Virus record (IMG/VR): IMGVR_UViG_3300042561_001009
Location: 1-25,661 of that record
Origin: a virus
Reading direction: 5' to 3' (one strand)
DNA: 25,661 nt
Below are positions 2,944-25,327 of the stretch, piece after piece. A model generated the notes under the pieces. The model was not told the origin of the DNA. It saw nothing but the letters and a program-made list of their open reading frames with translations, and did no database searches. Within the stretch, counting starts at the first letter, position 1, and the number at the start of each line of letters is the position of its first letter. The position numbers and the translations under genes were made by a program.

Positions 2944-2972
2944 ATTCAAAATATAGAAAATGTTACAAATTA

Positions 2973-6555: not shown

Positions 6556-9500
6556 TGATTACAAAAGATGTTAAAGTTTATTCCGGTATTTATTTCAAAA
6601 GTTTGTAAAATACTTAATGGTATGCAGTTACTATTGTAAACTGTTACAACTCCATTTTCATTTAAAAAATAACTTAACCCATAGGTTTGTAAATCTTCAA
6701 AAGCTAGAATTACACCTTCAACCCATTGATCAATTGTTGGTGCACTTAAATTACCATTATTTACGCCAACTCCTTGGAAAAACTCATAATTTATGATTGT
6801 TGTTCCATTAAAATTCACATTTACATACCAATTTGACTGAATTGTGTTTACCAAACAGTCATTTATTTGTTTACCACTTTGAGTTAAATAATTTGTTATG
6901 GTATTTACTAAAACAGTATTAAATGATTGTGTTGTTGTTGAGCCATTAAATCCTAATAAATTACACTCAATTGACTGAATTGGGCAATCGTAAGCAAATA
7001 TCTGACCGGCCAAGTAACAAGGTTTACAAGGGACCGGAATAATTTGACAACCTTTTTGTCTTCTCCACACAAATTTTTGACGATGAAATATTGAGTTTTC
7101 ATATTTAACACCGGTGTTCCAGATTGTTGTTGCTGGAATCATTTGTTCGATAAGTCGAGTCCAATAATCACCCAATCCATTCACATAATCAATCATTGTT
7201 TGATATGTAAAATTATCATTTGGAATATTGATTGCTTGTTCTGATTCTAAGTATCTCCAATAAATTGATTGTAATGTTGGGTATCCCCCTGTTTTACCAT
7301 CAGTTATAAATTGTCTATTTCTAACATTTATTGTGTTTTGCCAAAATGTTTGTGCGAACTCAAAAAATGTTTTTTGTTTTGGTTTTGGTACAATTTCGGT
7401 CCAGTCAATTCCACCTCTTTGTGGGTATGGTGTATTTGGGTTTGGGTTACAATATGTTGGTTCAATATAATTTAATCCTTGTTCTGGAATTGGGTAATTA
7501 TATTTTCTTGACATACTCCAAACGTCATAGACCAATCCTTGTGCTGGATTCATAAAAATGTCAACATTTTTAACATTGATTACCAATCTATCATCACCTA
7601 TTGTGTACCTAGCATTAAAATTACCATCAGAACTTTGTCTATTAACACTATTTGTATCAATCCAACTTTTTTTATTGTCAGAAACTCTTCTCAATCTAAA
7701 ACCAATGTCCATATATGGAAAACTTCTATACCTTTGAAGATATTCTTCCCCATAATTAAATGGCTGTAGTGTAGTTTCAAAAGTTGGGTTTGCACCAGTA
7801 AAAACACTATTTGTCAAATCAACTTGTTCTGGCATTCTATGTTGAGGCGTTGATTCAAACCAGCCTCCACCAATTTGATAATAGTAAGTTTCTGTTGGTG
7901 TAACCATAGCGGGGTAACCATTGTCATCAATAGGATAATCATCTATTGTTGTTGTAACATCTTGTGTTATAGTTTGTGTTGTGAATCCAGTATACTGGAC
8001 TCCCATTATTGAAAATATATCTGTTGTATCTAAAACTGGTAATTCTTGTGTGTACGTTCCTCCGGTAATTTGTGCAAATTGTGTATCAAATTGATTTAAA
8101 TTTATTTTTTGGTCCGCTAAATACACATACTCATTAAATTCAACAAGGGCTTCTGGAGCACCAATCAATCTTAATAATATTTCTATTGATTTTCTGGTCC
8201 CTTTTGATTTGAATAGATATGCTGAGTTTAATATTAAATTTCTATAATATTGATAATTCAACTCTTCTGGTGTCATTCCTTGTGAGACACCACTAAAATT
8301 ACTTTTACTTGGTGAAAAAACAGAACTTAGAAGTTCTTCATTTGATATTGGTGATATATTAGTATTCCATCCTAAAGTTTGTGCTAGATTTTTTAATAAT
8401 TGTGATGGTATATCGTTCTTAACATTATACCTTACAGAATTTATTGTTGATAGAGCATCAATAAATTGTTTTGTTTGGTCAAAACTTCTACCATAAATTT
8501 GTAATACTTTTTCTACTTTTTGATCTTGAGTATCAAATTCTTTAATGGCTCCTGTTGTTAAAAATCTAGAAACCAAATTTGTTTGATATAAATCAAAATC
8601 TTCCGCAATAGTATTTAATTGGTCAAGATAGTTTGTAAAACTAACAGTTCTAATGTCTAGATTCCAAAAATTTGAATCTAAAGGAAATTGTAGGGTTTCT
8701 TTTGCTGTATAATAGGTACCAACTTCAGTTTCTTTTGGGACATTAAATACTGCTGTATATATTGGTGAGATTTTTTTATTTAGTAAGAAATTTTCAACAG
8801 AATCAAAATCTTCATTAAATGTTTTATTTACATAAAAATCGTTTGGTCTAATTAACAATGTTTGGTATGAAACACCATCAGCACTAAATGGTTTTCCTTG
8901 AACAACTAAACCTAAAACTTGACTTGTACTATCAGTTGGTGTTGTAAAATTAACTGGATATTCATTTTCATTAACAAATAGTGAATATTTTGCAAATGAA
9001 GCTGTAAAATTTCTTAAAGGTGAAATTTGGGTTTCAAGTGATTGGAAATTTACATTAGCGTTTGTTGTAAAATCTATACCAAATGGATTTCTTATTGATG
9101 TAATAAGAATTTCAAATGAAGTTTCATCTTCAGTTTGGTCATAAATAATATTTTGGGCTGTCTGTTGTACTAAAAAACTTGAGGTTGTTTGGAATACTTC
9201 TAGACCGGCTGGAAAATAGTTAATAATTTTAGATATTGAAGCTGAAAATCTTTTAACTAAAGACCCATATAAAGTAAAATTTGTTATTTCTGATAAATCG
9301 TAATTTGGATATACTCTAAAGTTTTTTTCGACAATTGTTTTGGATTCTGCAACAGAATCAATCCCAATTGAGTCCAAGTTAATTGGGTCTGAAAATGCTC
9401 CAATTGAAAATGTTCTATTTTGTTTTTCAGTTATTGCCGTTGTAAATTCAAAATTACCTTGGGTAAAACCGCCCCCATCAACTAACTGAAACCCAACTAA

Positions 9501-9566
9501 GTTGTCTGAAAAAGTTCCTGCACCAGATGCAGATTGAGGAGGACAAGTATATTTTTTAACGGCCAT
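6552..9566 (-). CDS. Large baseplate/tail structural protein with tail-protein-I-like core
   Basis: A 1004-residue protein from ATG 9566, overlapping the upstream stop as TAATG and the downstream start as ATGA. The region 345-480 contains KVEKVLQIYGRSFDQTKQFI, then LLKNLAQTLGW (390-400), then YRNLILNSAYLFKSKGTRKS followed by IEILLRLIGAP (up to 471). The order of a helical segment, an L-G-W turn and a K-G-T-x-x-S/A-I-x-x-x-L-R-L-I-G helix resembles the core of P2 gpI-type tail proteins, which sit in the baseplate wedge. Size and neighbourhood also recall T4 gp7, but I see no sequence proof of that. A C-terminal Cys cluster (C840, C847, C850, C861, C868) follows an RRQKG motif and may bind metal or form disulfides. 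Other parts are Asn/Thr/Tyr-rich beta-like sequence. Confidence 0.7.
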   Translation of the reverse strand: MAVKKYTCPPQSASGAGTFSDNLVGFQLVDGGGFTQGNFEFTTAITEKQNRTFSIGAFSDPINLDSIGIDSVAESKTIVEKNFRVYPNYDLSEITNFTLYGSLVKRFSASISKIINYFPAGLEVFQTTSSFLVQQTAQNIIYDQTEDETSFEILITSIRNPFGIDFTTNANVNFQSLETQISPLRNFTASFAKYSLFVNENEYPVNFTTPTDSTSQVLGLVVQGKPFSADGVSYQTLLIRPNDFYVNKTFNEDFDSVENFLLNKKISPIYTAVFNVPKETEVGTYYTAKETLQFPLDSNFWNLDIRTVSFTNYLDQLNTIAEDFDLYQTNLVSRFLTTGAIKEFDTQDQKVEKVLQIYGRSFDQTKQFIDALSTINSVRYNVKNDIPSQLLKNLAQTLGWNTNISPISNEELLSSVFSPSKSNFSGVSQGMTPEELNYQYYRNLILNSAYLFKSKGTRKSIEILLRLIGAPEALVEFNEYVYLADQKINLNQFDTQFAQITGGTYTQELPVLDTTDIFSIMGVQYTGFTTQTITQDVTTTIDDYPIDDNGYPAMVTPTETYYYQIGGGWFESTPQHRMPEQVDLTNSVFTGANPTFETTLQPFNYGEEYLQRYRSFPYMDIGFRLRRVSDNKKSWIDTNSVNRQSSDGNFNARYTIGDDRLVINVKNVDIFMNPAQGLVYDVWSMSRKYNYPIPEQGLNYIEPTYCNPNPNTPYPQRGGIDWTEIVPKPKQKTFFEFAQTFWQNTINVRNRQFITDGKTGGYPTLQSIYWRYLESEQAINIPNDNFTYQTMIDYVNGLGDYWTRLIEQMIPATTIWNTGVKYENSIFHRQKFVWRRQKGCQIIPVPCKPCYLAGQIFAYDCPIQSIECNLLGFNGSTTTQSFNTVLVNTITNYLTQSGKQINDCLVNTIQSNWYVNVNFNGTTIINYEFFQGVGVNNGNLSAPTIDQWVEGVILAFEDLQTYGLSYFLNENGVVTVYNSNCIPLSILQTFEINTGINFNIFCNQ

Positions 9567-10474
9567 TATCCAGTTATGTTATTAAAAGCTTTGCTAAAAT
9601 CAATATTATTACCTCTATCTTGTCTAACTTCATAAAGAAGTTCATTAAATTGGTCTCTAATTTCGTATAAGTTGTATTGTTTGTAAATATTATTAGCACT
9701 GTCATAGATTGTGTAAATACCATCATCAATTGATTTGGTTTGATTACCATAAAGAGCAATTGCCAATGTAGAAATATCGTGTTCAGCAATTTCTATTTCT
9801 GTTGTTATTGGATTAAAAAATGTATTTGTAATAATAATACTTTGATCTGGTTGACCAATAAAAGGTGTTGCGTTTGGTTTGTTTGTTGGTGCTGATGATG
9901 GTGAAAGTGTACAAAACATTAAATTTGTTGTTCCTTCAACATATCTATATCTAATTGATTTTTGAATGGTATTTGTAAGGTTTTGGTAAACCGGTTCACA
10001 ATAAAAAGATGATGTAATAACTCTAAAAAAGTTTGGTATTTTTGTTCCATCACTATTTAAATATTCAACTCTAAAACCAATCAATCCTTGATTTGTAAAT
10101 TTATTTCTATATTCAGAAGGAACATTATTCAAATCAATAACAATTCCCTTAACATTTGGTAAAGCAGAAAGAACACCACAATCTGTGATTGTTGTTCTAA
10201 TTTCAGCTGGTCTAATATAAAGAGTATATATACCCAATTTATTGAATTGGTCAACTGGAAGTCTCAAATTGTAAAGACCACCCAGAATTTCAACATTAGC
10301 ATTACCCCCAGTATTTCCGTTATGAAAATATGGTCTCAATATATTTTTTGCATCTAACTTTGTTAGAGTAAAATTATCTGTATCATCTCTTGATGGTGTA
10401 TAATTTAAAAGTATTTCAACATCATCAGGACTAACGTCAGAGGGTCTTATTGTTCCGTAAGTTCCAGTAGCCAC
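9566..10474 (-). CDS. Uncharacterised tail structural protein (302 residues)
   Basis: Starts at GTG 10474-10472 (MATGTYGTIRPSDVSPDDVE); no in-frame ATG lies nearby and the next internal Met is far downstream, so the GTG start is the best choice. The N-terminal segment RPSDVSPDDVEILLNYTPSR is followed by a beta-rich body with LPVDQFNKLGIYTLYIRPAE (about 73-92), and the C-terminus is polar with YEIRDQFNELLYEVRQDRG. No enzymatic motif, signal or membrane segment is visible. It follows the PKD protein by 49 bases and overlaps the 1004-residue protein at TAATG, so it belongs to the tail operon. Possibly a baseplate or fibre-connector protein; this is by context only. Confidence 0.7.
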   Translation of the reverse strand: MATGTYGTIRPSDVSPDDVEILLNYTPSRDDTDNFTLTKLDAKNILRPYFHNGNTGGNANVEILGGLYNLRLPVDQFNKLGIYTLYIRPAEIRTTITDCGVLSALPNVKGIVIDLNNVPSEYRNKFTNQGLIGFRVEYLNSDGTKIPNFFRVITSSFYCEPVYQNLTNTIQKSIRYRYVEGTTNLMFCTLSPSSAPTNKPNATPFIGQPDQSIIITNTFFNPITTEIEIAEHDISTLAIALYGNQTKSIDDGIYTIYDSANNIYKQYNLYEIRDQFNELLYEVRQDRGNNIDFSKAFNNITG

Positions 10475-10523: not shown

Positions 10524-11693
10524 TCATTGTTTTTCAACTTTGAAATATCCATATCCATACTTTTCCAAGTCTCCTATATTATCAACCTCACCCAACCTTT
10601 CAATTTGTTCCAAACCTGTAATTTTTCCTCTTTCAATAAAAATATTTGTTTGTACTTCTGGTTCGTCAATAACATTAAGGTATGCTTCATTTTTTGTAAT
10701 TGCCGATAATATTAAATCATTTGCCGTAAAACCAGATGACTGAATTGAGTAAATTGTATATCCATCTTCATAATCATAATAATCAATTCCATTTATTGTA
10801 TAGGCAGTGTATGAATTAGTAATATCTGGTCCCCAAAAAATTCCAACATCTCCAGTTGTTCCGGTTACGGGAATTCCTGGTTTAAATTTACCAGCAAACA
10901 AATTTTGTTTTGGTCCATATTGTGATAAATCATTTAATGTTGATTGTGTAAATCCTGTAATTGTAAAAGGAACTGTTGTGTAATTTGAACTATAAAAATC
11001 ACTAATATTAAAATTAGAATCCCCAGAAAAAATATAATTATAATTAAAACTTGTTGCTGACCAACTTCCTCCGGCAGGTGTAAAAAATGCGGTACCTTGT
11101 GGATTAAGAATTGGTACATTTATAAAAGGAACTGTAATAGTTTTTGTGACAACTGAAATTCCCCAAGGTGATGTTGCGGTCATTGTTATTGTGTATTGAC
11201 CGTCTGTAACATAATTGTGTGTTAAAGGGCCACCACCACTTATTGGTACCAATGGGGATCCGTCTCCCCAATCTACAACATAAGAAACTAGAGATAAAAA
11301 CTTTTTTAATTCTAATTCCGAAGTATTATAAAAATAATATGTGTATGGTGATGTAGTTGTTGCTGAAAATATAAAGTTATTTATGACATCTTTTTGTAAA
11401 ATTGCACCATCAAAAATAGAATAATAACCTAAATCTATTGCTGTTTGAGTAAATAATATTGGTATTGTTAGTCCAGTTAATACTGATACACCATTTGTAC
11501 CACCGGATAATAATTGTGTAATACCACTATAATAACCGGTAGTTCCCGTATAGGTTTCAATTGTTGTTGCTGTTATTGGACAACAAGGGTCAACATCAAA
11601 AAATGTTTCTGTCCCTGCGGTATAGTTTACCTGGACTATATCACTTTTAATGTTTTCTGGCGAAATTTTAAAATAATATCTTTGTTGTTCCAT
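10524..11693 (-). CDS. PKD-domain-containing virion protein
   Basis: A 389-residue protein from ATG 11693, two bases after the preceding stop (TAA TA ATG). Residues about 105-190 form a PKD domain: VVDWGDGSP at 139-147, then LTHNYVTDGQYTITMTATSP at about 157-176, ending in a TKTITVP strand. PKD domains are Ig-like beta sandwiches common in bacterial and viral surface proteins, and in phages they decorate tails or capsids. The N-terminal 100 residues have a CCPITAT motif and Gly/Thr-rich sequence. The C-terminus ends in GLEQIERLGEVDNIGDLEKY, a charged segment unlike the rest that could anchor the protein to the baseplate. No catalytic motif is seen. Attachment to the particle is inferred from neighbours. 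Confidence 0.75.
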   Translation of the reverse strand: MEQQRYYFKISPENIKSDIVQVNYTAGTETFFDVDPCCPITATTIETYTGTTGYYSGITQLLSGGTNGVSVLTGLTIPILFTQTAIDLGYYSIFDGAILQKDVINNFIFSATTTSPYTYYFYNTSELELKKFLSLVSYVVDWGDGSPLVPISGGGPLTHNYVTDGQYTITMTATSPWGISVVTKTITVPFINVPILNPQGTAFFTPAGGSWSATSFNYNYIFSGDSNFNISDFYSSNYTTVPFTITGFTQSTLNDLSQYGPKQNLFAGKFKPGIPVTGTTGDVGIFWGPDITNSYTAYTINGIDYYDYEDGYTIYSIQSSGFTANDLILSAITKNEAYLNVIDEPEVQTNIFIERGKITGLEQIERLGEVDNIGDLEKYGYGYFKVEKQ

Positions 11694-11695
11694 TA

Positions 11696-12499
11696 TTATG
11701 GGTTAATATATTCATACCACATTAAAGGTGAAGCTAAATTTCCAACTCTTAATAATGTGGTTGTATCAATAACTTCATATGTTTTAGTTGGGTAATCTAA
11801 AACTAGTTTGTAATAATAATATTTTGACGAATCAAAATTGAAAAAATTTGGTGTTATATTTGATTGTGGTGTATTTGTCATCCTTTTATATGTACCATCT
11901 TTACCATTAAAAAATCTGGCGGACATATAAAATTCTGTTAAATCAATATATTCTCTACTTCTTAACCAATAAATAAAATAACCTTCTTTGTCTCCAATAT
12001 AATCCAAAATCATATCTGGTATTTTAACATCAACATTAGGTATTAATGTATTAATATTTACATTTTGTGTTAGACCTTGTTGCACTGGTAAAATAATTGT
12101 AAAATATAAGGTTTGTGTTTTTTCTTCTGGAGTATCATAAAAATCCAATTTAAAAAATGATTTTGTAAATGGTTTTGAGAAATAGTAAAGTTCGGTATCC
12201 GTAAACCCTTGTGGGGTATAATCAACAACCCAATTAGTAATCGTTGATGATGTAACCGGTAATGTATTATCAAAAAAATGAAACTTATAATTTATTTCAG
12301 TATTAAGGTTTTGGAATTGTTTGTGTTCAAATCTAGCAACCTCAAAATCTGAGGCCGTACCAATAACTTCCTTTACCATTTCTTCTTGGTATTCTTCGAT
12401 ACTATCTGTTCTTCCACCAAAATCCCATCTTATTTCAAGAGGAATATTGATGAATTGGTCATCGATTGGTAATTGTATTTTAATTTTATTCACATCCAT
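11696..12499 (-). CDS. Uncharacterised tail structural protein (267 residues)
   Basis: Starts with ATG 12499 (MDVNKIKIQLPIDDQFINIP), 14 bases inside the end of the 587-residue gene, an overlap that suggests coupled translation. The N-terminus contains an acidic segment (DSIEEYQEEMVKEVIG, about 32-47). The rest is rich in Phe, Tyr and Asn with an alternating beta-strand pattern. No Cys-rich, membrane or enzymatic motif is recognised. It lies between two large structural proteins in a dense run and is most simply a baseplate or fibre-linking component. I cannot name a family. Confidence 0.7.
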   Translation of the reverse strand: MDVNKIKIQLPIDDQFINIPLEIRWDFGGRTDSIEEYQEEMVKEVIGTASDFEVARFEHKQFQNLNTEINYKFHFFDNTLPVTSSTITNWVVDYTPQGFTDTELYYFSKPFTKSFFKLDFYDTPEEKTQTLYFTIILPVQQGLTQNVNINTLIPNVDVKIPDMILDYIGDKEGYFIYWLRSREYIDLTEFYMSARFFNGKDGTYKRMTNTPQSNITPNFFNFDSSKYYYYKLVLDYPTKTYEVIDTTTLLRVGNLASPLMWYEYINP

Positions 12500-14249
12500 C
12501 TACTAAAGGTTCTGCAATTTCACTTATGTTTTGTACATCTGTTCCTTCAGGAACTATTCTAAAAATTGTATTTACAAATGGATAATGTTTTCCATTTGTA
12601 AACGGATAATTAACACCAATACCATTTTGGTCTAAAAACCCATATTCATATATATCTCTCCATCTAAATCCATTTGAAAGGTTGGAAAAAAATGCATAAC
12701 TTGGGACACCTTCAACATTCTCATAAATCGATTCTTCAATGTAATCCGAATAAACTCTTAATGTAATTGGGTTATGTGGCTTGTAATAATAACCAAATTG
12801 ATTTGATTGTGGTGCTGTAGTTTGTATTGAAAACCATTGTGGGTTATACCCTATTTTATGATTATATCTTGATATAACTCTCTCTTTTTGTTCATAGTCA
12901 TTCCATTCACAGAAATCACCATTTAGAGTATCTCCGGTTGTAAAATTACTATTATAAAAAAATGGACCTTGTGGTGGTAGGGTATTTGAATTATATTGCA
13001 ATTGTGGAATGTTAAATAAATTTGCACTATTAAGGTCGCTCCACCAAGGACTTGGTATATTTTGATATAATGGTAAATTAAAATCCCAACCTTCTTTGGT
13101 ATTGATTGTCCAACCAAAAGAACCTTTCCAAATTGTTGTAAAAAATAATTCTGAAACCGGTCTTTTTTGATTATCTAATAAAGGTGATAAATCAATGTCA
13201 ACATTAAAAGAAAGTGTGTATGATTGACTTCCTTCAGAAGTTGATGACCTTGTCGTACTATTTGGTGTTAAAACAGATTTTTCTAATTTTGATTTACTAC
13301 CATATATATTTTGTTCAAAACCGGCTTTAACTAAAATAGCATCTTCAACATTTGTTAGAATTTTATGTTTTCTAACATAATATTTTGAAGTTGTTTCTTG
13401 TTTGTTTGATGTTGTTATTACTCTTTTAAATGTTCCGGTAACATTTTGATCAAATGTTGTTCCTGTGTATCCCACATTATCAATATTAAAAATATAATCT
13501 TCACTACCATAACCACTATCACCTAAACTTGAAATTTGGAAATACTCTTCCCCGTTATAATTAATTGATAACTGAACAAACTCACCGGCACTTAAACCGT
13601 GTTTAATTGGTGATTTAAATGATATTAGTGTTGAGTTATTATTACTTCCAATATAAATTAAAAATGGTATCCCGTCTTGACTTACCCACGACCAAGCACC
13701 ATTTGTAACTGGGTCTGCGGCATATAACTGTTTGTTAAAATCATTTTCATAAGCATAACTTAAATAGTGAGTCCAATTATACGTTGTGGCACTTTTATTA
13801 ACAAAAGTTATTTGATTGTCTGGTGGTTGTGTATAACCCACAACATTATTATCTGTTCTTATAAAATCAAATTCAAAATATTGTGGTTTTCCTTCCCAAA
13901 AAATATTTGTGTTTGGGACTCCGGGTGGTGGAAAATTACCACCAGGAAATGTTGATATTGTATTTTCAATTGGATTTGTATAATATAAATTATTTTTAAA
14001 TGGACCATAGTTAGTTTTTCCAATATATTCATTTTGGAAAATTACTGTGAACTTTGTGGTTGGTCTAAATATTGTTGATTTTTGTCTTTCATCAGAATAT
14101 ACCTGTTCTAAACTAATATCTACATTTCTGTCAAATTCAACAATCTCTTCTTGTGTCTGTTGAAGTGGAACATTAAGTGCAAAGTTTGTTTCTGGTGCTG
14201 ATTTATACCTTAAACTACCTTTAATAAATGTTGTTGTTTTATCTATCAT
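12486..14249 (-). CDS. Uncharacterised tail structural protein (587 residues)
   Basis: Starts with ATG 14249, overlapping the stop of the 1860-residue gene as ATGA. The sequence is Asn/Tyr/Phe-rich and beta-like, with many aromatic-Pro segments (GGNFPPPGVPNTNIFWEG at about 103-120, and a W-W motif in the C-terminal half). It has no signal peptide, transmembrane helix, coiled coil or catalytic motif that I can see. The size, composition and position immediately after the 1860-residue protein point to a baseplate or fibre component. No family is recognised. Confidence 0.7.
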   Translation of the reverse strand: MIDKTTTFIKGSLRYKSAPETNFALNVPLQQTQEEIVEFDRNVDISLEQVYSDERQKSTIFRPTTKFTVIFQNEYIGKTNYGPFKNNLYYTNPIENTISTFPGGNFPPPGVPNTNIFWEGKPQYFEFDFIRTDNNVVGYTQPPDNQITFVNKSATTYNWTHYLSYAYENDFNKQLYAADPVTNGAWSWVSQDGIPFLIYIGSNNNSTLISFKSPIKHGLSAGEFVQLSINYNGEEYFQISSLGDSGYGSEDYIFNIDNVGYTGTTFDQNVTGTFKRVITTSNKQETTSKYYVRKHKILTNVEDAILVKAGFEQNIYGSKSKLEKSVLTPNSTTRSSTSEGSQSYTLSFNVDIDLSPLLDNQKRPVSELFFTTIWKGSFGWTINTKEGWDFNLPLYQNIPSPWWSDLNSANLFNIPQLQYNSNTLPPQGPFFYNSNFTTGDTLNGDFCEWNDYEQKERVISRYNHKIGYNPQWFSIQTTAPQSNQFGYYYKPHNPITLRVYSDYIEESIYENVEGVPSYAFFSNLSNGFRWRDIYEYGFLDQNGIGVNYPFTNGKHYPFVNTIFRIVPEGTDVQNISEIAEPLVDGCE

Positions 14250-17200
14250 GCGTTAGGGTCAAAAATATAAAGTTTAACAAATTTATCTATTGCTGTTTTT
14301 CCATTGTTCAAACCAAAATAGAAATGGTATGGTGCGCCAACAAGAATTGACTCACCTGGTTGTGTTGTTGATGGTGTTGCAATTGGGTCTGGTTGTGATG
14401 AACCACTAAAATTAACAATATACCCTTGTTGTGTTTGTGGGTTAAAATATGAAGTTGTAAAGTAAGGGTCACTATTAAAATCTAAATCCTGATAACCTTT
14501 AGAAAAGAATCCACCAGTTGATGTAACATTTGTGTCCCAATTATTATTTTCATTACCAAAAATATAATTTGAGTCAATACCTAACTTCCATTTATAATGT
14601 GGTACTTCTTGTGTTTTTGGGTATCCATATTGATAAAATATTGGTGGAGCTAAATTATAGTATTCGGAACCTGGTGATAAATTTCTTCTATATACATAAT
14701 CTAAATCATTATTTTCATAAAATAATCCAAATACTGGTCTTGGGTATCCGTCACCAGATTGTGAGTCATCACCAAAGAAAATACTATTTGGGTTAGGATA
14801 GTTTTCTGCTAAAAATGGATTTATTCTCCATTCAGAATTTATTGAGAGCATTTGAGCAAAATCACCATCAATTCTATCACCTTGTCTTGTACTATTAAAA
14901 AACTGTATAATACCTTTACCTTCAGTATTATCTCCAGCTGGGTTGGTTAATGGTATCATAGCTTGTCTAAAATTATCGTTTAACAATCTAGATAAAAACC
15001 CAACTTGTATTACAATCGAATTATCTTGGTATGATGTTGATTTTACTTGGTCAACATAATAACTATTAAAATTATCATTATTACAAATTTCTGTAATGAA
15101 TTTTTCTCTTGGTCCCAAATCCATAACCGTTGTTGGGAATTGAATTTGTTTTGTATTATACCCAATACCTGGGTAATCATTTACTAATACTGCTGGCCAA
15201 TTTGAGTTTGGTTGTGGGGCATCTTTTCCTATGAATTTTGTCCCATCCCAAGGCGATGATCTATAATAAAAATTATTTTCTAAATCATTAAAAACTATAA
15301 CATCATCACAATATTTGTAATCTGGTGTTGTATCGGTAAGGTTTGAATAAGTTGCAGTTTTATTAAAACTAAACATATATAATACACCATTCACCCAGTT
15401 GTTTTGGAATGTTTGTGCAAAAACACCCCTACAAGCGGCAAATGTTATTGTAAATCTTGTTTTCCATTCTAAGAATAATCTAGCATCATCTGAATATGCA
15501 CCTTTAATTAGGTATACTTTTTTGAAGAATTTATATAGGGCTGGGTCTTCATTAGGGTCAACATCTTTTTTATTTAACAAACAATAACAGCCTTCAACCA
15601 CTCTATCTGGTGGTACAACACATTGGTTTTCTGGTATTACAGTTACATTTGTTCCAGATCCACTATAACATTGTAATGAAACCATATCTTCACAAGTAAA
15701 AGTTTGGGTTAATCCGGAAACATCAGCATCTAACCCTTCACCAGAAGGCAAACTTGCCGAAAAACTTGTTGTTGAGTCGCTTGATTGTCCATCAATTCCG
15801 TAATAACAAAAATTATTATTCATATGAAGTGCGTAACCAGTTCTAGAACCAGCACCATTTTCAATACAAGTTGATGTTGGTAATCTATCACTTCTCATTA
15901 TTATATTATTTTTATTTGTAAAATTAACACCAGCTAATTCACCCGGATTTGTATAACGATAATACGCTGCGGAATACATTGTGTATATTATATTTGTACT
16001 ACCAAATGGATAACCTAATGTATCCACACTTGCAAATTGGTAGTATAAATCTAAAGTTGGTGTTAGTGTACCAATAGATGTGTTAATTGCAATAAAAGAA
16101 TCTCCACCAAAATATTGTTGTGGAACACCTTTTGGTAAAATTGAAGGTAGTGTTGTTAATATATTTGGTGTTGATGATAACAAACCTACAGTAAATGCGT
16201 TATTTTCTGTTTTATAATTTTGTCCACCAAATGTAAATCCGTTCATATTGTTATCATCTGTAGATAAGTAATAATAAGGGTTTGTTGATGTAAATCCTGA
16301 ATAATCATTTGATGGTGTAAATGTGAATGACTCAAAATATAAACCTGTGGGTGTTGAATTATCAACTGTATTATGCGTTTTTGGTCCTAAAGTACTTGCT
16401 TGTATTGGTCTATTAAGATAATAATTACCAGTAACGGTAACGGTATTTGTTGTTGTGTAACCAAACAACAATGATAAATCATATTTAATTTCTTGTTTTT
16501 GTGTGTATGGGTCAACACCTCTTGTTATTATAACAATTTCATAATCATCTTGATAATTTGGTATTTGTTCTATAGCAATAAAACCAGTAACTTGTTTACT
16601 TGCTGGGTCACCATTATCATCGGTTGTTGTTGCAATATATGGTGGACTTAATGGTATTGGTATTACTTGTGATGCTGATTGTCTCTCGACCTCATAAAAA
16701 ATTCTATGTTTCAAATATTCATTATGAAATAAGTTTGTATTTACTCCGGTTGATTCCGATAAAGTTTCGTATTCACCAATAGTCATTCCGGTAATTACTT
16801 GGAAATATTCAATATCCGGTAAGTATTGCATATAATTTTCACTACTACCGGTTTGTATAATATTAATGTTAGCTGATGAGGTTGTTGTTGGGTTAGATGG
16901 ATTTGCAAAAGGAATTGAGTATAATGTTGTACCTGTTACTGTAGTACCGGTAACCGAATTTAAACCAAATTGATTTATTGTTGCTCCAGTTATATTTATA
17001 TTACCGTCTGATGTAACTGGGTTATTAAATGAAAAAACTGTACCAATACCAATATTACTTGTTGTCCCTTTTCTAACTAAAAGAACAAGTGATTGGTCTT
17101 GATAAGTACCAGACCCTGGTAATGTTGGATTTGGTGTTACTGAAATTCTATTAACCCCACTAAAGTATCTTTCTCTTGTGTTAAAATCATTTAATTTTTG

Positions 17201-19828
17201 TGGGTAAGTAACTGATAAAGGATTTGCAAACCATCTATCATCATCACTAGCACCGGTGTCTTTGTCGGCACCAAAAACAAATGGTTGTGGCGCTTTAAAT
17301 TTAAGATTATTTGGTGAAGAAGTATCATCCCAACCAGAAAATAATCTTTTAAAATCTATTGACGCTTGTGCTGCCACACCTGGCTCAATTTTTTCGTCAA
17401 AAATTAAAGCAATTAACGATCTATAACCAAAATCAGGTAAATTTCCACTACCATCATTAAACCAACCCTTGTTATTATTTGCCGGAGGAAATAATGGTCT
17501 TTGGTCTAAGTTAGGGTGGTCAATATCATATGTTGCAGATAAATTTATTGGTGCTAAAAAAGAAGTTGAGCTTGCTAAAGATGTGTCTGGGTTGTCTGTA
17601 TTTGAATCAACAAGTGTTTGGACTGATTGTGAGTCAAAATTATCTTCCATTTCCGCATTTGAACATTTACAATCACAACTATTACATTCTGGATATGAAA
17701 TCATCGGTAAACCGATTCTAGGAAAACCTTTGATTTTTAGTGCCGCAATTACAGCGAGTGCAGTAAATGTTAATGCAAAACCAACTTTTACTGCCGCAAC
17801 AACAATCTTAAAAACACCATAACCAATAAGCCTTATTGATTCTAAAAGCCAACCGGTGTTTATTATTGGACCACCGACATTCGCACTAAAAATACCAGCA
17901 CCAGCACTAATTGATTGTACACCAGTTTGTACGGCTTCAATTCCCGCAACAACAGAATCGTAAGTTTCTTTAAGTGCTATAAGAATTAAAACATATTTTA
18001 AAATTGGCCATAAAAATGAAATAAAATGGGCAACAAATAATAGAACTAATATAATTGGAGCTAAAACACTTACTAATATGTTAAAAATAAAAAACAAAAA
18101 ATCAAAATTTCTAATAATATCATTTACCGGAAATGTATTTACTGTTGTTTTACAAGTCCTATTATCAATTTCTTTTATACCTAAATGTCTTGCTCTACCA
18201 ATACCATTTTTGTATCTATCAAGAAACATTGATGTAGTATATACTTTATTGTAGTTAAACTCATAAAATCTGTCCTCACAATTAATAGCATCTTGTACCA
18301 TAGTTGAGTCTCCATAATCATCCCAATCTAAACTAAAAGCATATGACCTTAATAAATCAAAATAATCAGATTGATAGTATGTAAAAGTAAAAACTTGTGG
18401 TTGTGTTGTATCATTTGGATTAGCACTTATTTGAATATTACCCCCGGTTATTGGTATTACATTTGGGTCTCCGGTATACAATATACCATTCAAATAAATA
18501 TTAAAATCTGTAACATTTGTTGTACTTTCCAATACTAATCCACCGGGACCAGGTAAAGGTTGTGTTGAACCTGTTAAAACACCAATACCTAATGTATAGG
18601 TAAATGTTCCAGTATTTAATGGATTTAATGGATCTTGCGATGAAGTTGTCCATCCATATTCTTTTATGTTTGGGACGAGGAAATTTGCTCTTAAAAATTG
18701 GTTTTGTAATCCGCCTTCATTATTCCATTTAAACTTAAATCTATATTTTCCTTTTGTTGGTATTCCTTTGTTTGGATCATTTGAAATAACTTGTTGACCA
18801 AATTCATTTGTAATTACATAATCCAAATTCATTGGTACGTTTACTAAATAAGAACCGTCCCCATCAATTACATTTCCATTTTGTTCAAACTGATATTCTT
18901 CAAGAACTGGTAAATTTTGTTGATCTAAAAATATTGTTTGTCTTATTGCTTGAATTGACCCACCACCAGCAATTAATTCACAAAGATTTCCAGTATTATT
19001 TTTTGGTTTACAATTTTTCTTTAAGGCATCGTCATCAGTTGTTGAGATAATAGAACCCATAAATACTGAAGTTGGATTTATACTTATATTGTTACTTTGT
19101 GTTAAATCAAAATCACATCTTGTAATCCCTAAAGAACAAATATTTGGTTCACCCCATAAAGGTGAAATGTCTATAATTCTATTTGATGTTACAATTTGTG
19201 GTAGTTCATTTAAGTTTGTAGAACTTTTAAATTTAGAACCGCTTACTTGGGCTTCAGTTGCTTGACCTGATTGTATAAGGTCTTGTGGTGAAAGTGAAAA
19301 ACACCCAATGTCTGACAAATCTACATCTAAAAATACAGTTTGAGAACCTACTGGAACTCCAAATATCATATAATCACCACTCTCATTTGTTTTTGTAGTA
19401 AATTTATAATATTTGTCATAAATTTCTATTTGGGTTTGATCTATTAGGATTTCTTCTTTTGTTGGAAATGTCCCAGTTGCAGCATGCGTTGAATATGATG
19501 GTTCTTTTGGTAATAAGTTATATCTATATCCATCTTCACTTACATCAGATAATGTTTTGTATGGATATAAATCGGCAATTAAAGGGTTATTTTCATCTTC
19601 AGTTGTTTGAGGAATAAAAACAGACACTTTTGCATTTGGGATTCCGAAACCATTATTAACAGAAACTCGACCTACAATAACCCCATAGTCAGAACAAGGT
19701 CTAATGTATATGTCACTTTGATTGATTTTTAAAGAAAGTATTTCTAAAAAATCAAAATCTTGTTCTAGTTTTACGTCAATATGTTTGTCTATACCGACTT
19801 GGGTTCGTATTCTATATGATTTTGGCAT
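14246..19828 (-). CDS. Giant structural protein with carboxypeptidase-regulatory-like domain and internal membrane-type helices
   Basis: A 1860-residue protein from ATG 19828, the largest gene here. Residues about 48-170 fit a carboxypeptidase-regulatory-like Ig fold (VIVGRVSVNNGFGIPNAKVS, later TNESGDYMIFGVPVGSQTVF), a prealbumin-like module usually found in surface proteins. Residues about 575-620 and 655-700 are strongly hydrophobic (FLFFIFNILVSVLAPIILVL, WPILKYVLILIAL, FALTFTALAVIAAL), separated by a Gly/Ala/Ser-rich segment. A Cys cluster follows directly (C715, C718, C720, C722 in YPECNSCDCKC). The remaining 1100 residues are Asn/Tyr-rich with scattered Cys. It follows the gp6-like gene after 74 bases. 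A baseplate-associated or host-envelope-contacting role is inferred; membrane helices are unusual in a baseplate component. A tape-measure role seems less likely, since extended helical sequence is lacking. Confidence 0.75.
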   Translation of the reverse strand: MPKSYRIRTQVGIDKHIDVKLEQDFDFLEILSLKINQSDIYIRPCSDYGVIVGRVSVNNGFGIPNAKVSVFIPQTTEDENNPLIADLYPYKTLSDVSEDGYRYNLLPKEPSYSTHAATGTFPTKEEILIDQTQIEIYDKYYKFTTKTNESGDYMIFGVPVGSQTVFLDVDLSDIGCFSLSPQDLIQSGQATEAQVSGSKFKSSTNLNELPQIVTSNRIIDISPLWGEPNICSLGITRCDFDLTQSNNISINPTSVFMGSIISTTDDDALKKNCKPKNNTGNLCELIAGGGSIQAIRQTIFLDQQNLPVLEEYQFEQNGNVIDGDGSYLVNVPMNLDYVITNEFGQQVISNDPNKGIPTKGKYRFKFKWNNEGGLQNQFLRANFLVPNIKEYGWTTSSQDPLNPLNTGTFTYTLGIGVLTGSTQPLPGPGGLVLESTTNVTDFNIYLNGILYTGDPNVIPITGGNIQISANPNDTTQPQVFTFTYYQSDYFDLLRSYAFSLDWDDYGDSTMVQDAINCEDRFYEFNYNKVYTTSMFLDRYKNGIGRARHLGIKEIDNRTCKTTVNTFPVNDIIRNFDFLFFIFNILVSVLAPIILVLLFVAHFISFLWPILKYVLILIALKETYDSVVAGIEAVQTGVQSISAGAGIFSANVGGPIINTGWLLESIRLIGYGVFKIVVAAVKVGFALTFTALAVIAALKIKGFPRIGLPMISYPECNSCDCKCSNAEMEDNFDSQSVQTLVDSNTDNPDTSLASSTSFLAPINLSATYDIDHPNLDQRPLFPPANNNKGWFNDGSGNLPDFGYRSLIALIFDEKIEPGVAAQASIDFKRLFSGWDDTSSPNNLKFKAPQPFVFGADKDTGASDDDRWFANPLSVTYPQKLNDFNTRERYFSGVNRISVTPNPTLPGSGTYQDQSLVLLVRKGTTSNIGIGTVFSFNNPVTSDGNINITGATINQFGLNSVTGTTVTGTTLYSIPFANPSNPTTTSSANINIIQTGSSENYMQYLPDIEYFQVITGMTIGEYETLSESTGVNTNLFHNEYLKHRIFYEVERQSASQVIPIPLSPPYIATTTDDNGDPASKQVTGFIAIEQIPNYQDDYEIVIITRGVDPYTQKQEIKYDLSLLFGYTTTNTVTVTGNYYLNRPIQASTLGPKTHNTVDNSTPTGLYFESFTFTPSNDYSGFTSTNPYYYLSTDDNNMNGFTFGGQNYKTENNAFTVGLLSSTPNILTTLPSILPKGVPQQYFGGDSFIAINTSIGTLTPTLDLYYQFASVDTLGYPFGSTNIIYTMYSAAYYRYTNPGELAGVNFTNKNNIIMRSDRLPTSTCIENGAGSRTGYALHMNNNFCYYGIDGQSSDSTTSFSASLPSGEGLDADVSGLTQTFTCEDMVSLQCYSGSGTNVTVIPENQCVVPPDRVVEGCYCLLNKKDVDPNEDPALYKFFKKVYLIKGAYSDDARLFLEWKTRFTITFAACRGVFAQTFQNNWVNGVLYMFSFNKTATYSNLTDTTPDYKYCDDVIVFNDLENNFYYRSSPWDGTKFIGKDAPQPNSNWPAVLVNDYPGIGYNTKQIQFPTTVMDLGPREKFITEICNNDNFNSYYVDQVKSTSYQDNSIVIQVGFLSRLLNDNFRQAMIPLTNPAGDNTEGKGIIQFFNSTRQGDRIDGDFAQMLSINSEWRINPFLAENYPNPNSIFFGDDSQSGDGYPRPVFGLFYENNDLDYVYRRNLSPGSEYYNLAPPIFYQYGYPKTQEVPHYKWKLGIDSNYIFGNENNNWDTNVTSTGGFFSKGYQDLDFNSDPYFTTSYFNPQTQQGYIVNFSGSSQPDPIATPSTTQPGESILVGAPYHFYFGLNNGKTAIDKFVKLYIFDPNA

Positions 19829-19902: not shown

Positions 19903-21741
19903 TCAAGAAAAGTTGATTGTTTTAAAGTTTAACACTCTAACATTAATGTCCTTGTTTGGAAATCTAATTTGGTAGATTTGTGTTGGTTCAGCAAAAATTG
20001 TATCAGCAATAAGTTCTATTTGTCTTGTTGCTGGATCAGAATATCTTTGTGATGTTTGTGATGATGAATATTGACCACCAACATTATTAAAAAATTGTAT
20101 ATCTGATATTGATATTACACCATTTTCATTTTGAATCAATCTTCTAAGTTCAGATACGTAAACATTTTTTCCTAATTGTTGTGTTAATGGATTAAAATAG
20201 GTTGTTATAATATCAATAATTTTGCTAATAATAGCACCTTGGTTTTGACTAGCGTCTAATACAACATCAACATTTACAGATAAATCAACAACACTTGCGG
20301 TTTCAACAGAAATGTAATCATTTATCATTCTATAGTTTGATAGATAATTTGCAACATTATTTTTAAGTGTATTTGAATTTGTTTCAGTTAAATTACCACT
20401 AGTATCATAAGACAACATTTTAATTTTAATTTTGTTGTTTTCTTCAGTAACAGAAACTTTTGCTGGCGCACCAAATTGTGATGGCATCATTCTCAAAACA
20501 GATTCATAATCATTTACAGTTACAGCTCTATTTTGTGCTGCAAAGTTAAACGAAACGTATTGTCTTACTTCTTCGGTTGTTGGTGCGTCAGCACCACCAA
20601 TTGCCGCTGTAACATTATTAGCTCTTAATGAATTTACAACGGTTGTATTAATTGATTCTGAAGGACCATTAACAAAAAATGATACTGTACCTATTTGATT
20701 TATTGTATTTATACCAAGATTTGTTCCTTGACCACCACCAATTCTATACTGAATGAATAATGTTGAGTTTGATTTAAGTGCGGCACCTAATGCAAGATTA
20801 TTAGAATATTTACTTAAATTCATTTCTAAACCACTTCTTGCAAAATCTCTTAATTGTTCTTCAGCTGATACATTACCACCACCAAAAGTCATCTTTAAAT
20901 AACCTTCTGGTGTATATTCAGTTACAAATTTTGTGTTTGTTGTAATATATGTTCCAACTTTTATTCCGGGTTGATCAGATACTTTGGTTGGGTCCTCAAT
21001 GAACACTCTATCTTCAGCTAGAGCTTTTACTTCATACCATCTATTATCAAGACCTAAAAATTCTTGTGGTTGTGGGATATTTGTATATTGAGTACCATCT
21101 TTTAAAAGAACACTTGTTATACCTAAAACATTTTTTTCTGGTAAAAATAATTCAAAAAATGGTCTTACATCGTTTGGTGTTATTGTTCTTTTAAAAACCT
21201 TGGTAATACCATTAACAACAACTTCTCTTTTTGTAATTGTGTAATTTAATAATTTACCATTTGAATCGAAATTTGGTATTTTTAATCTGTTTGGTGAACC
21301 TTCAGAATTTATTGGTGACGCAAAATCAATATCATATACAGTTTCAAACGGTTGTCCAGCACCACTAACTTGTGATCCCCTTCTTAATACACCACAATAT
21401 CTTAAATCTTCTCTATCGCCAAAAGCAGGAACTATAATTGAAAAATCAACTAAAGCAACAGAAGGTCTTTGTCCTGGTATTTTTAAACCATAAGTTCTTG
21501 CAATATTATAAATTGATGATTTTTGTTGTGCATATTGTAATACAGTTTCCTGGATACTTCTATCAATATGAAATTGTAAATTATCCGTTACTGCGGCATT
21601 TAAATCCAACATAACGGAGAAAACTCCAGCGTCATTAAAATTCTGAATTAAATCTGGATAATAAGTTCTTGTAAAATTTATTAACTCGGTTCTAATTCCT
21701 TGGAAATCTCTTGTTGTATATGATATTTTCTTTTCTGCCAT
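19903..21741 (-). CDS. Baseplate wedge protein, gp6/baseplate-J type
   Basis: A 612-residue protein from ATG 21741. The N-terminus (SYTTRDFQGIRTELINFTRT) followed by D-x-x-A-x-x-x-D-x-L-x-F-H-I-D-R (about 50-61) is typical of T4 gp6-like wedge proteins. Residues 335-420 hold RIGGGQGTNLG and APTTEEVRQYVSFNFAAQNR followed by AVTVNDYESVLRMMP; the A-P-x-T-x-E-x-x-R and A-x-x-R-A-V-T-x-x-D-Y motifs define the baseplate-J family. In T4, gp6 forms the iris-like ring that links wedges and drives the baseplate change from hexagon to star. It lies two genes after the gp25-like protein, another wedge component. Length is close to T4 gp6. The family call is strong; the exact structural position is by homology. 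Confidence 0.92.
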   Translation of the reverse strand: MAEKKISYTTRDFQGIRTELINFTRTYYPDLIQNFNDAGVFSVMLDLNAAVTDNLQFHIDRSIQETVLQYAQQKSSIYNIARTYGLKIPGQRPSVALVDFSIIVPAFGDREDLRYCGVLRRGSQVSGAGQPFETVYDIDFASPINSEGSPNRLKIPNFDSNGKLLNYTITKREVVVNGITKVFKRTITPNDVRPFFELFLPEKNVLGITSVLLKDGTQYTNIPQPQEFLGLDNRWYEVKALAEDRVFIEDPTKVSDQPGIKVGTYITTNTKFVTEYTPEGYLKMTFGGGNVSAEEQLRDFARSGLEMNLSKYSNNLALGAALKSNSTLFIQYRIGGGQGTNLGINTINQIGTVSFFVNGPSESINTTVVNSLRANNVTAAIGGADAPTTEEVRQYVSFNFAAQNRAVTVNDYESVLRMMPSQFGAPAKVSVTEENNKIKIKMLSYDTSGNLTETNSNTLKNNVANYLSNYRMINDYISVETASVVDLSVNVDVVLDASQNQGAIISKIIDIITTYFNPLTQQLGKNVYVSELRRLIQNENGVISISDIQFFNNVGGQYSSSQTSQRYSDPATRQIELIADTIFAEPTQIYQIRFPNKDINVRVLNFKTINFS

Positions 21742-21752
21742 AATGTTTTATT

Positions 21753-22643
21753 TTATATGCTAAATTTTCTTATAGCACGAACTCTTAAACTTCCTGTTTT
21801 CATAGAAGCACCTGCTCCTGTATGTGTACCAGCTATACCAAAATTAAATATTAAAGCTTCTGTTTGATTTCTTTCAGTACTACTCCAATAATTTTCGTTA
21901 ATTATTTCAGTAGCACCAGATATTGAACCAAAACTAGAATTACCAGACAAAGTTCTATTTACATTAAACCTATTATTGTAAAGTAAATTAAGTTCATCAA
22001 TAGCTGGTAAGTACCATCCTGAAATAGGTACTACAGAATTATAAAAAGTAACCGCATAAGCAGCACTTGTAAATTGACTACCTGTTGAACCTGCTAATGT
22101 TAAATAATTAGAAGCACCATTCCAAGATGAAGTATTCATTAACATTGGTGGTTGCCCTGGTCCCATTCTATTATCCCAAGAAGCACTTGTTGCAGCATCA
22201 GATTTAGCAACTACTAAATAATTTTCTTGACCGCCATCTTTATATCTATGGAATATTACACCACCTTGTGCAGGTACATACTCTCCTATTTCATAAGTAT
22301 ACTCACCAATTCCAGTTAAATTTGAGCCGTCACCATAAAATGTTACACCACTTATTGTTGTTGCAGATAATGTGCCATTTACCGTAAGTCCAGTTACAGT
22401 ATCTATTGTTGTACTAAATGTATTTCCAGAACTATCACTAATTGTAAATGTATTATCTTGATATGTATAACCTGTTACATACGTGTCTGTACTACCAGAA
22501 TTAATATAGCTCTTTAAATCAGGAATTCTTATATTTTTTGTTGTTCCGGAATAAACATCATAATTTACTATTGCAAGTAAATCATATGGTGTTACACCAG
22601 AACTTGTTACATTTTGTAATTGTGATATTCTTTTATTTGCCAT
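21753..22643 (-). CDS. Tail-fibre-like protein with C-terminal DUF1566 (lectin-fold) domain
   Basis: A 296-residue protein from ATG 22643. The N-terminus (MANKRISQLQNVTSSGVTPY, then DLLAIVNYDVYSG) resembles phage fibre attachment domains. The segment up to about 112 is Thr/Ser/Gly-rich beta sequence ending in FYGDGSNLTGIG (102-113), a motif often found in phage fibre shafts. Residues about 125-293 show DUF1566/Lcl features: GGVIFHR, GWYLPAIDELNLLYNNR (209-225), NYWSSTE (251-257), and a terminal LRVRAIRKF. DUF1566 is a C-type-lectin-like fold found in bacterial and phage surface proteins. Placed between the gp25- and gp6-like genes, it may be a short fibre or receptor-binding tip attached to the wedge. 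Binding specificity is unknown. Confidence 0.8.
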   Translation of the reverse strand: MANKRISQLQNVTSSGVTPYDLLAIVNYDVYSGTTKNIRIPDLKSYINSGSTDTYVTGYTYQDNTFTISDSSGNTFSTTIDTVTGLTVNGTLSATTISGVTFYGDGSNLTGIGEYTYEIGEYVPAQGGVIFHRYKDGGQENYLVVAKSDAATSASWDNRMGPGQPPMLMNTSSWNGASNYLTLAGSTGSQFTSAAYAVTFYNSVVPISGWYLPAIDELNLLYNNRFNVNRTLSGNSSFGSISGATEIINENYWSSTERNQTEALIFNFGIAGTHTGAGASMKTGSLRVRAIRKFSI

Positions 22644-22649
22644 ATACTA

Positions 22650-23108
22650 TTAAATATTTATAATTACAAAATCACTAGTTTCAAAAACAGTATTTGTTGA
22701 TTTATATTCAATTTTTATTCTTGCCGTATGTTCTTTTTGTGATATTCCAGGTACTTTATATGCTAGCTCACCATTACTATCAACATACGTTCCTTTGTCT
22801 TCATCTTCTAATGATGCGTCTGTAATGCTTATTTTTGTGATTAAAAGATTTGGAATATATCTTTCAACAGAATCTCTAATTTCAGATTCAATGTCAGAAA
22901 AGGTTGGTCCATCTAATGGTTCAAAAATATACTCATATAATCTTGTCCCAAAATCTGGTAAAAAATATCTACTTCCTTTTCTTGTTAATAATAAATGAAT
23001 TAAATTACTTCTTATTTCTTCTGAAGTTGTATCTGAAGTGTCCAGATATTTTCCAACAAAAGAATCTCTAAAGGGAAAATTTATTCCATAAGTAATACCA
23101 TTTGCCAT
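22650..23108 (-). CDS. gp25/GPW-type baseplate wedge protein
   Basis: A 152-residue protein. Residues about 15-65 contain TSEEIRSNLIHLLLTRKGSR, then YFLPDFGTRLYEYIFEPLD; the R-x-x-L-x-x-L-L-x-T-x-x-G-x-R pattern followed by P-x-F-G is the gp25-like hallmark. In T4 and related contractile systems this protein joins the wedge to the inner baseplate and helps sheath attachment. I chose ATG 23108 (MANGITYGINF); an upstream TTG at 23114 would add only two residues. It is the first gene after a strong terminator-like hairpin, so it likely opens the tail transcription unit. A 6-base gap separates it from the fibre-like gene. Confidence 0.92.
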   Translation of the reverse strand: MANGITYGINFPFRDSFVGKYLDTSDTTSEEIRSNLIHLLLTRKGSRYFLPDFGTRLYEYIFEPLDGPTFSDIESEIRDSVERYIPNLLITKISITDASLEDEDKGTYVDSNGELAYKVPGISQKEHTARIKIEYKSTNTVFETSDFVIINI

Positions 23109-23140
23109 ATTCAATAAATATAGTGTTGGTAAATTTTATC

Positions 23141-23467: not shown

Positions 23468-25327
23468 TTAAACAATTTCACATCCCGAAGCTCCACATGC
23501 TATTTCACCACTCAAGTCGGTATTATCTTGCAACTCAATAATTTTTGTAAGATCAACATTTTTTAATGTTTTTACCAATCTTTCATATTCTTCTTGTGTG
23601 CAATCTTGGAAAGGTGCCTGTGTGTAAGTACCTCCGTTGAAGGGTAAAACTGATAATCCGTTATAGAATTTTCTATTTTTCCACATCCAATCACCAACTA
23701 ATTCCCACTCATCTTCTTTAATTGAAACTGTTGCTGATACATTGTGTGTGTTTTGACCGGTTCTATGTCCAGATTTAACCCACTCTTGTGATACTTTTTT
23801 AACTCGTTCCAACATTTGGAATACAGATTCATATCTCAAAATTGACCCTTCTGGTGCCATTTGTGGAATTGTGATTACCGCAGTATCGTGTGGTCTAAAA
23901 TATTCATCTTCAACAAGTTCCGGGTGATTGATTGCAAGATATGAATATATTGCTTCATTCTTTCCAACACGGATTCTTCTTAAATAATAATCATTATGCC
24001 AAGCGTGAATACCAGATGATGTTCCCAATACTAATGATGAGGTACCAGATGGTTTAACAGTTGTTGTTCTTGCAGATTTGTTAATACCAATTAAAGTTGC
24101 AACTCTTTCGTTTTCTTCTTTAACCGCGTTTGCTGCTGCTTTCATATCGTAACCTAATACAACTCCAGAACCAATACCTGTCATCCCAACCCCAATAAGA
24201 GCGTCTTTTTCTGTTGTTCTTTTCCATACGTCTCTTAAATAATGGAAGTCAGTATAACCAGCTTGTAATGTTCCAATAAAGGCCGCCCCTTTAACTCTAT
24301 TCTCAAAATCTTCTTGTGACTCAAGATCTGAAGCATTCACCTCACATAAGTTACAGAATTGGTAAGGACGAAGGGCAATCTCACAACAAGGGTTTGTACC
24401 CCAATCTTTATCGTTAGATAAATAGATTCCAGGTTCTCCGGCTCCAGATAATTCAATTCTTTTCCAAAGGTCCATAAAATATTCTTGTGTTACTTTATGT
24501 CTTAATAGAACAGCCGAATTATTTGCTCTACCTCTTTGTGGATTTGATTCCCACCAGTTTCCGGATTTACAAGAAATCATTTCTTCATCGTCAGCACTAA
24601 ATAATGAAATTAATGCAGCTCTACGAATACCACCAGCTAATACCGCATCGGCAATATGACAAACAATGTCATGTGTCTCAATTGGTGTTAATTTATCACC
24701 ATCATTTTTGTTTTCCAAAACCTTTGTAATGTTGTGAATACAATCTTTTAAAGGTTGAGGTCCTGGTGCTTTTCCTCCTGATGTTACAAGAAGAGCTCCT
24801 TTTTGACGAATATCTGAAAAGTCAAATATAGGTGTTGAAGATTTAGTCCCCATATAAGACTCAATCAACACTTTAATCGCGTCAGCCCATCCCTCAATAG
24901 AATCTCCAATTAGGTATCTTCTTGTTCTTGTTGGGTTTGGTTTTTTAATTTCAGGTAGTTTATCAACGTGGTGTTTTTGAACTGAAAATCCTACACCAGT
25001 ACCACCTAATAACAAAAACATTGTTTCTGAAAATGCGTCTGTATGGTCCACCGGTAAGTAAGCACAGTTATAAACTCTGTTTGGTGAGATTTCAATTGGT
25101 TTACCACCGAATTGTAATGATCTCATTGATGGTAAGATTTTCTTATCATATACCATTTTATAGACGGTTTCAATTTCGTCTTTAATATGTGGGTATTTTT
25201 TCTGGTGCATTTCTTTATTTCTTGTTACCAGTTCTTCCCAAGTCTCCCTTCTATTTAATTCAGGGACAAATTTAGCGTATTTCATATACACTGTAATATC
25301 GCTTAATATTTTTTGTGAAATATCCAT
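23468..25327 (-). CDS. Class II (adenosylcobalamin-dependent) ribonucleotide reductase, short phage type
   Basis: A 619-residue enzyme reducing ribonucleotides to deoxyribonucleotides for phage DNA synthesis. Key residues can be placed against the Lactobacillus leichmannii enzyme. C88 (YNCAYLP) and C325 form the redox pair around the active site, N312/C314/E316 lie in NPCCEIAL with C314 as the thiyl-radical Cys, and C611/C616 in the C-terminal CGASGCEIV are the shuttle pair with the same five-residue spacing. LLLGGTGVGFSV (105-116) and KPSGTSSLVLGTSSGIH (425-441) are finger-loop and phosphate-binding motifs. It is about 120 residues shorter than the 739-residue L. leichmannii form. No small subunit gene or flavodoxin lies nearby, as expected for class II. 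ATG 25327 starts 25 bases after the helicase stop. Confidence 0.88.
   Translation of the reverse strand: MDISQKILSDITVYMKYAKFVPELNRRETWEELVTRNKEMHQKKYPHIKDEIETVYKMVYDKKILPSMRSLQFGGKPIEISPNRVYNCAYLPVDHTDAFSETMFLLLGGTGVGFSVQKHHVDKLPEIKKPNPTRTRRYLIGDSIEGWADAIKVLIESYMGTKSSTPIFDFSDIRQKGALLVTSGGKAPGPQPLKDCIHNITKVLENKNDGDKLTPIETHDIVCHIADAVLAGGIRRAALISLFSADDEEMISCKSGNWWESNPQRGRANNSAVLLRHKVTQEYFMDLWKRIELSGAGEPGIYLSNDKDWGTNPCCEIALRPYQFCNLCEVNASDLESQEDFENRVKGAAFIGTLQAGYTDFHYLRDVWKRTTEKDALIGVGMTGIGSGVVLGYDMKAAANAVKEENERVATLIGINKSARTTTVKPSGTSSLVLGTSSGIHAWHNDYYLRRIRVGKNEAIYSYLAINHPELVEDEYFRPHDTAVITIPQMAPEGSILRYESVFQMLERVKKVSQEWVKSGHRTGQNTHNVSATVSIKEDEWELVGDWMWKNRKFYNGLSVLPFNGGTYTQAPFQDCTQEEYERLVKTLKNVDLTKIIELQDNTDLSGEIACGASGCEIV

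Follow-up and report, generated by a model that had tools for sequence, protein, structure and literature searches.

What a strongly hydrophobic block does inside a protein encoded among the baseplate genes of a phage is the question raised by this locus. The protein concerned, of 1860 amino acids, is encoded on the minus strand (14246-19828) of the window, i.e., the whole stretch of 25,661 nucleotides of viral DNA that was analysed, and is referred to here as the giant protein. A preliminary description had drawn attention to two or three very hydrophobic helices around a Gly/Ala/Ser-rich linker at 17729-18121 (residues 570-700), directly followed by a C-x2-C-x-C-x-C motif, and had offered two readings: a segment that enters the host envelope during infection, or a factor of assembly that is anchored in a membrane and does not belong to the virion.

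The hydrophobic helices were confirmed. Kyte-Doolittle (KD) hydropathy over 19 residues peaks at residues 581-599 (KD 2.91) and 675-693 (KD 2.21), within hydrophobic stretches at 577-625 and 658-698, and the linker between the peaks, at about 626-660, is rich in Gly, Ala, Ser, and Val. The longest uncharged run in the block spans about residues 577-610, and on the Wimley-White octanol scale the best 19-residue sum in the 1860-aa protein is -17.7. Shuffling the whole protein 2000 times gave a mean maximum of 1.82 and a highest value of 2.88; none of the shuffles reached 2.91, which, together with the presence of the block in 202 of 205 family members (see below), rules out a chance origin. AlphaFold2 modelling of the monomeric N part (residues 1-760; mean pLDDT 75.8, as compared to 70.9 for the C part) gave beta domains and two long helices, helix 1 at residues 577-647 (17888-18100; minus strand, like all features below) and helix 2 at residues 658-698 (17735-17857), both with a pLDDT of about 75-80. 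The cysteine motif is present as C715-x2-C718-x-C720-x-C722; it is located at 17663-17686, just beyond the segment in which it had been placed, and is modelled with a pLDDT below 50.

The assignment of the gene to a baseplate region also held. It lies directly downstream of genes for a gp25-like wedge protein (22650-23114; PF04965, E = 8e-12; phrog_261) and a gp6-like Baseplate_J wedge protein (19903-21741; PF04865, E = 1.7e-8; hhalign 96% to T4 gp6), adjacent genes that are shared with the T4-like contractile tail baseplate. It is followed by genes for conserved cassette proteins of 587 aa (12486-14249; 212 loci of the family), 267 aa (11696-12499), 389 aa (10524-11693), 302 aa (9566-10474), and 1004 aa (6552-9566). 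The 267-, 389-, and 302-aa proteins were assigned by synteny, and the 1004-aa protein gave hhalign profile matches (93% and 86%) to the large post-gp6 proteins of phages Mel-JY01 and immuto. The gene order gp25, gp6, giant, 587, 267, 389, 302, 1004 is kept across hundreds of phage contigs that are otherwise very different. This conserved location favors a virion part. The neighbors are free of such a block. None of the seven other cassette proteins in the window has a segment comparable to that of the giant protein, and a KD of at least 2.0 was reached by none of the relatives of the 587-, 267-, 389-, 302-, and 1004-aa proteins (0/174, 0/114, 0/87, 0/74, and 0/65), by one of 236 gp6 relatives, and by one of 190 gp25 relatives. 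The only other ORF in the window that exceeded 1.6 in the hydropathy test encodes a 347-aa protein (1963-3006), which acquires a hydrophobic N-terminus if translation is assumed to start at a TTG codon; it looks glycosyltransferase-like by eye and has no Pfam match. An Lcl_C-type domain, scoring below cut-off, was noted in a protein of 296 aa that is encoded between gp25 and gp6 (21753-22643) and that only a few relatives have (6 loci), and a gene for a 619-aa ribonucleotide reductase (23468-25327; phrog_367, B12-type insertion domain) adjoins the baseplate genes.

Searches of the Pfam and PHROGs databases with the giant protein gave nothing above cut-off, and no match was obtained when six family members were used as tblastn queries of 50,697 phage records or when the PDB was searched with a sequence profile of the giant protein. 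Foldseek comparison of the N and C models with the PDB yielded nothing at E <= 0.001, and VIA-align Z scores were at most 7.0 for the N model and 2.4 for the C model, too low to be informative. One clear relative was found in the BFVD, i.e., A0A8S5LA66, an uncharacterized and unannotated protein of the metagenome virus Myoviridae sp. ctPuP5, whose homology to the N part is evident (46% identity in 393 aligned columns). In the immuto, Mel-JY01, and LR756508 phages, gp25-gp6 is present and the giant protein was not found, the last search having been done without a positive control. The literature on transmembrane baseplate proteins in jumbo myophages provided no direct precedent. Scans of viral contigs revealed at least hundreds of relatives among the matches listed, on contigs of up to 412 kb. 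From these, 54 full-length representatives with <85% identity to each other were selected, as well as a wider set of 205 distinct complete members. A member counted as complete if its ORF is terminated by a stop codon within the contig; assembly errors may still have truncated a few of the shortest ones. Members of about 3000 aa (L172, L173, and L178) are encoded on contigs of up to 245 kb. The giant protein family and its conserved module are real, conserved, and undescribed, and they define an unnamed, widespread family of baseplate proteins with a single conserved module inside.

The giant protein is absent from 394 of 395 Bacteroidota genomes, and its gene is, therefore, a virus gene. The possibility of a cellular or prophage gene was rejected; the one positive genome is a bin in which two contigs carry a copy each. 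A sheath protein (PF04984) was detected at E <= 2.1e-6 in six of eight contigs of relatives tested, in four of them above cut-off, which indicates that the phages are contractile-tailed.

The N-terminal region of the giant protein (residues 1-400; 18629-19828) is common to the whole superfamily, with 42-49% identity to the first row in an alignment of 17 diverse rows, and was used to find further relatives. It contains a predicted beta-sandwich (residues 43-249; 19082-19702) that is weakly carboxypeptidase-regulatory/transthyretin-like (VIA-align Z up to 7.0). The match of the 1860-aa protein to PF13620 (carboxypeptidase regulatory-like) scores 17.1 bits vs. a curated cut-off of 32.3, and a similarly weak match below cut-off is found in 42 of the 54 representatives. 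A second beta domain is predicted by AlphaFold2 at residues 402-489 (18362-18625), with Z scores of up to 6.9 to unrelated beta domains. The surroundings of the block had been described as extracellular-type; the predicted beta-sandwiches agree with this, but the likeness to known domains is weak, with all Z scores <= 7.0. Immediately before the block, a stretch of residues 515-576 (18101-18286) is highly conserved among the representatives, with C517, YNKVYT, C559, an NKFPxND-like motif, and D576. Further downstream, the alignment shows an invariant NNWVNG motif (residues 1476-1481; 15386-15403), matched by 163 of the 205 members and the counterpart of an NDWxNG motif that comes after the block in other clades, and a C-terminal FYFGLNNGKTAIDKF motif (residues 1836-1850; 14279-14323), which is also present in short forms that lack the block. 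Four more cysteines, C1379, C1387, C1403, and C1414 (15581-15694), are near invariant (51-54 of the 54 representatives); this set, at residues 1379-1416, is distant from the hydrophobic block.

A 19-residue segment above the usual hydropathy threshold for membrane segments (KD >= 1.6) occupies the same slot in 202 of the 205 complete members (KD >= 2.0 in 183), starting at positions between 449 and 716, and none of the 205 has a second 19-mer with KD >= 1.8 outside this slot. After clustering of the N domains at 60% identity, the block is present in 28 of 31 clusters. Such retention among homologues indicates that the block is under selection. Its residue identity drifts whilst its hydrophobicity is kept, the exceptions being D576 and H601, a histidine close to where the conserved hydrophobic helix ends (18026-18028; 53 of 54 representatives). 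The first hydrophobic helix is present in all 54 representatives; helix 2 is variable, and later helices are shorter or gone in distant clades. C517, C559, C715, and C718 are invariant in the representatives and C720 is found in 53 of them, but C722 is kept in the near clade only (15/54). Thus, the first three cysteines of the motif noted earlier are near invariant and the fourth is not. Cysteines are enriched after the block in all 202 block-bearing members (8.6 vs. 3.0 expected per 200 aa). In one clade, the giant protein contains 38-54 cysteines; the L248, L243, and L289 ORFs have 44-54, many of them in the segment after the hydrophobic helix. That the block is a relic, or a non-specific hydrophobic spacer without a defined role, would fit its drifting sequence and its absence from three natural members, but is very improbable in view of its presence in nearly all members and clusters and the invariant residues that flank it.

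Of the 205 complete members, only three short forms are without the block, L341 (770 aa), L156 (744 aa), and L158 (728 aa). In L341, the block and the cysteine cluster are both missing and the flanks are joined directly (...NPFPYNKIYKTTFGRVDLNFYNDW...): NPFPYNK almost directly abuts LNFYNDWING, and the FYFGL C-terminal motif is retained. By its sequence, this junction looks like a natural excision. The same kind of motifs is retained in L156; a scan with the L158 protein as the query gave no relatives. Intermediate forms also exist, i.e., L398 (830 aa), with a minimal single helix and two cysteines, and L346, whose helix is weak (KD 1.78). Together, the block-less and intermediate forms indicate that the block is a module gained by, or lost from, a core of ~750 aa. 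The N- and C-terminal parts make up a core, which can occur by itself, as in the short forms of ~730-770 aa, and between them lies one optional but nearly universal module, consisting of a hydrophobic helix or hairpin and then a cysteine-rich segment. The role of this module can be approached directly by comparison with the natural forms that lack it.

The hydrophobicity of the block is membrane-like rather than amphipathic: among the 152 block-bearing members examined, the octanol sum is negative in all (median -13.9), the median KD is 2.59, and the hydrophobic moment is low at 0.17. By crude measures, the number of hydrophobic 19-residue segments per member is one, two, three, or four in 70, 70, 10, and 2 members, respectively, and the flanking charges reveal no positive-inside bias (60 vs. 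59 members). The variable helix count and the lack of an inside charge rule speak against a plain membrane protein of fixed topology; they fit a helix that is carried on the particle and meets membranes, or a buried bundle, better. In such a bundle, the hydrophobic helices of several copies would pack together, either within the baseplate or along the axis of the tail, without ever meeting lipid, and the cysteine cluster would be an adjacent structural metal site. Irregular helix numbers and charges are expected if membrane topology is irrelevant, and the unbroken helix of 71 residues in the AlphaFold2 model is longer than a bilayer. A buried core is nevertheless somewhat unlikely, as the hydrophobicity is of the membrane type, the module varies greatly in length (about 28 to 130 residues) and helix number for a fixed packing core, and the rare members without the block keep the rest of the protein, so that the block is not the core of the fold.

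T4 gp7 also bears on the possibility of burial, since it is a baseplate protein with a predicted membrane segment. It is encoded by a large wedge gene directly after gp6, the same position as that of the giant protein gene, and its record describes it with the words 'C-terminus is predicted integral membrane domain'. Gp7 is nonetheless a wedge protein of the virion, an indication that predicted hydrophobic segments can be soluble; its segment is not known to lie in a membrane in the solved T4 baseplate. This segment is weaker (KD 2.07) than that of the giant protein and was not seen together with a cysteine-rich module. An identity of the giant protein with gp7 was considered and rejected: the N and C family profiles do not rank gp7, whereas a control gp6 profile found T4 gp6 (96%), and the gp7 Pfam domains PF21427, PF21428, and PF21456, which all match T4 gp7, gave no match in the 1860-aa protein. 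Pairwise BLASTP gave no significant match between T4 gp7 and the 1004-aa cassette protein.

Contractile systems of Bacteroidota and other bacteria use membrane anchors, and the giant protein might similarly be inserted in the inner membrane while tails are being assembled and nucleate baseplates from there, like the T6SS membrane complex, whether or not it stays in the virion. TssNQOPR is the membrane complex of the Bacteroidota T6SS (PMC10781749), and CisA of Streptomyces is a membrane adaptor of a contractile injection system (PMC12237407); unlike a module inside a phage baseplate protein, these are separate membrane proteins of the firing cell. In the thylakoid-anchored contractile injection system of Anabaena, the tail-fibre-like component Cis13 has a putative transmembrane helix that is needed for anchoring (PMC8894136). 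This helix lies at the C-terminus of a fibre-like protein that belongs to a cellular machine, whereas the block is internal in a phage protein of mostly 1100-3000 aa. In descriptive terms, and with no relatedness implied, the giant protein may work like membrane-anchored contractile systems such as Cis13. A role as an assembly anchor is, however, quite unlikely: besides the missing positive-inside asymmetry and conserved helix number, which weigh against a conventional anchored membrane protein, the block is preceded by 450-700 residues of mostly beta domains, and synteny puts the gene among wedge genes. Of the two earlier proposals, insertion into the host envelope fared better, with contact with a membrane being the inferred part.

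Engagement of the host envelope by a baseplate protein with a cysteine-stapled hydrophobic hairpin is, judging from the sequence data, a tentative reading with a chance approaching one half; a membrane function during infection appears to be the most likely single explanation, if at less than even odds. The giant protein would be a structural baseplate component of large phages with contractile tails, in which the cysteines would staple the base of the hairpin, via a metal or disulfide, and the hairpin would be shielded in the free particle. Rearrangement of the baseplate at the cell surface may then expose the hairpins of several copies, which would dock into, or perturb, the host membrane and might keep the baseplate attached to the envelope or facilitate passage of the tail tube. 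Counted in favor of envelope engagement were the single-slot block in 202 of 205 members, the block-free neighbors, the post-block cysteines, the L341 and L398 forms, the hydrophobicity kept despite drift, the sheath gene, the viral origin, and the Cis13 precedent. Counted against it were the case of T4 gp7, the presence of Lys/Arg within the helix in some clades, the variable length of the module, and the AlphaFold2 pLDDT values of the helices and the cysteine cluster. A more elaborate version, i.e., a dedicated device in which several stapled hairpins form a ring or pore round the tail tube upon contraction, is doubtful. The route of contractile phages across membranes after sheath contraction is poorly known, and no envelope-inserting ring or pore device is known from a contractile phage tail. 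The module hints at a way in which the cell envelope may be engaged by these uncultured phages.

The hosts here are probably Bacteroidota. Among four genome bins with relatives, two are labelled Bacteroidota or Cytophagales, the others being Wolfebacteria and Mycoplasmatota, and the Bacteroidota labels together with SprB repeats in the window point to such hosts. These repeats, joined to DUF285 (BspA-like) repeats by a Pro/Thr-rich linker, are found in an 1117-aa protein (3202-6555), possibly an adhesin-like fibre. Two of eight family contigs encode ribosomal protein S21, which has been reported as a feature of phages of freshwater Bacteroidetes (PMC9723584). In one Bacteroidota bin (G009), two different short members, L398 and L158, are found on contigs C55 and C209, so that this bin probably includes sequences of two or more phages.
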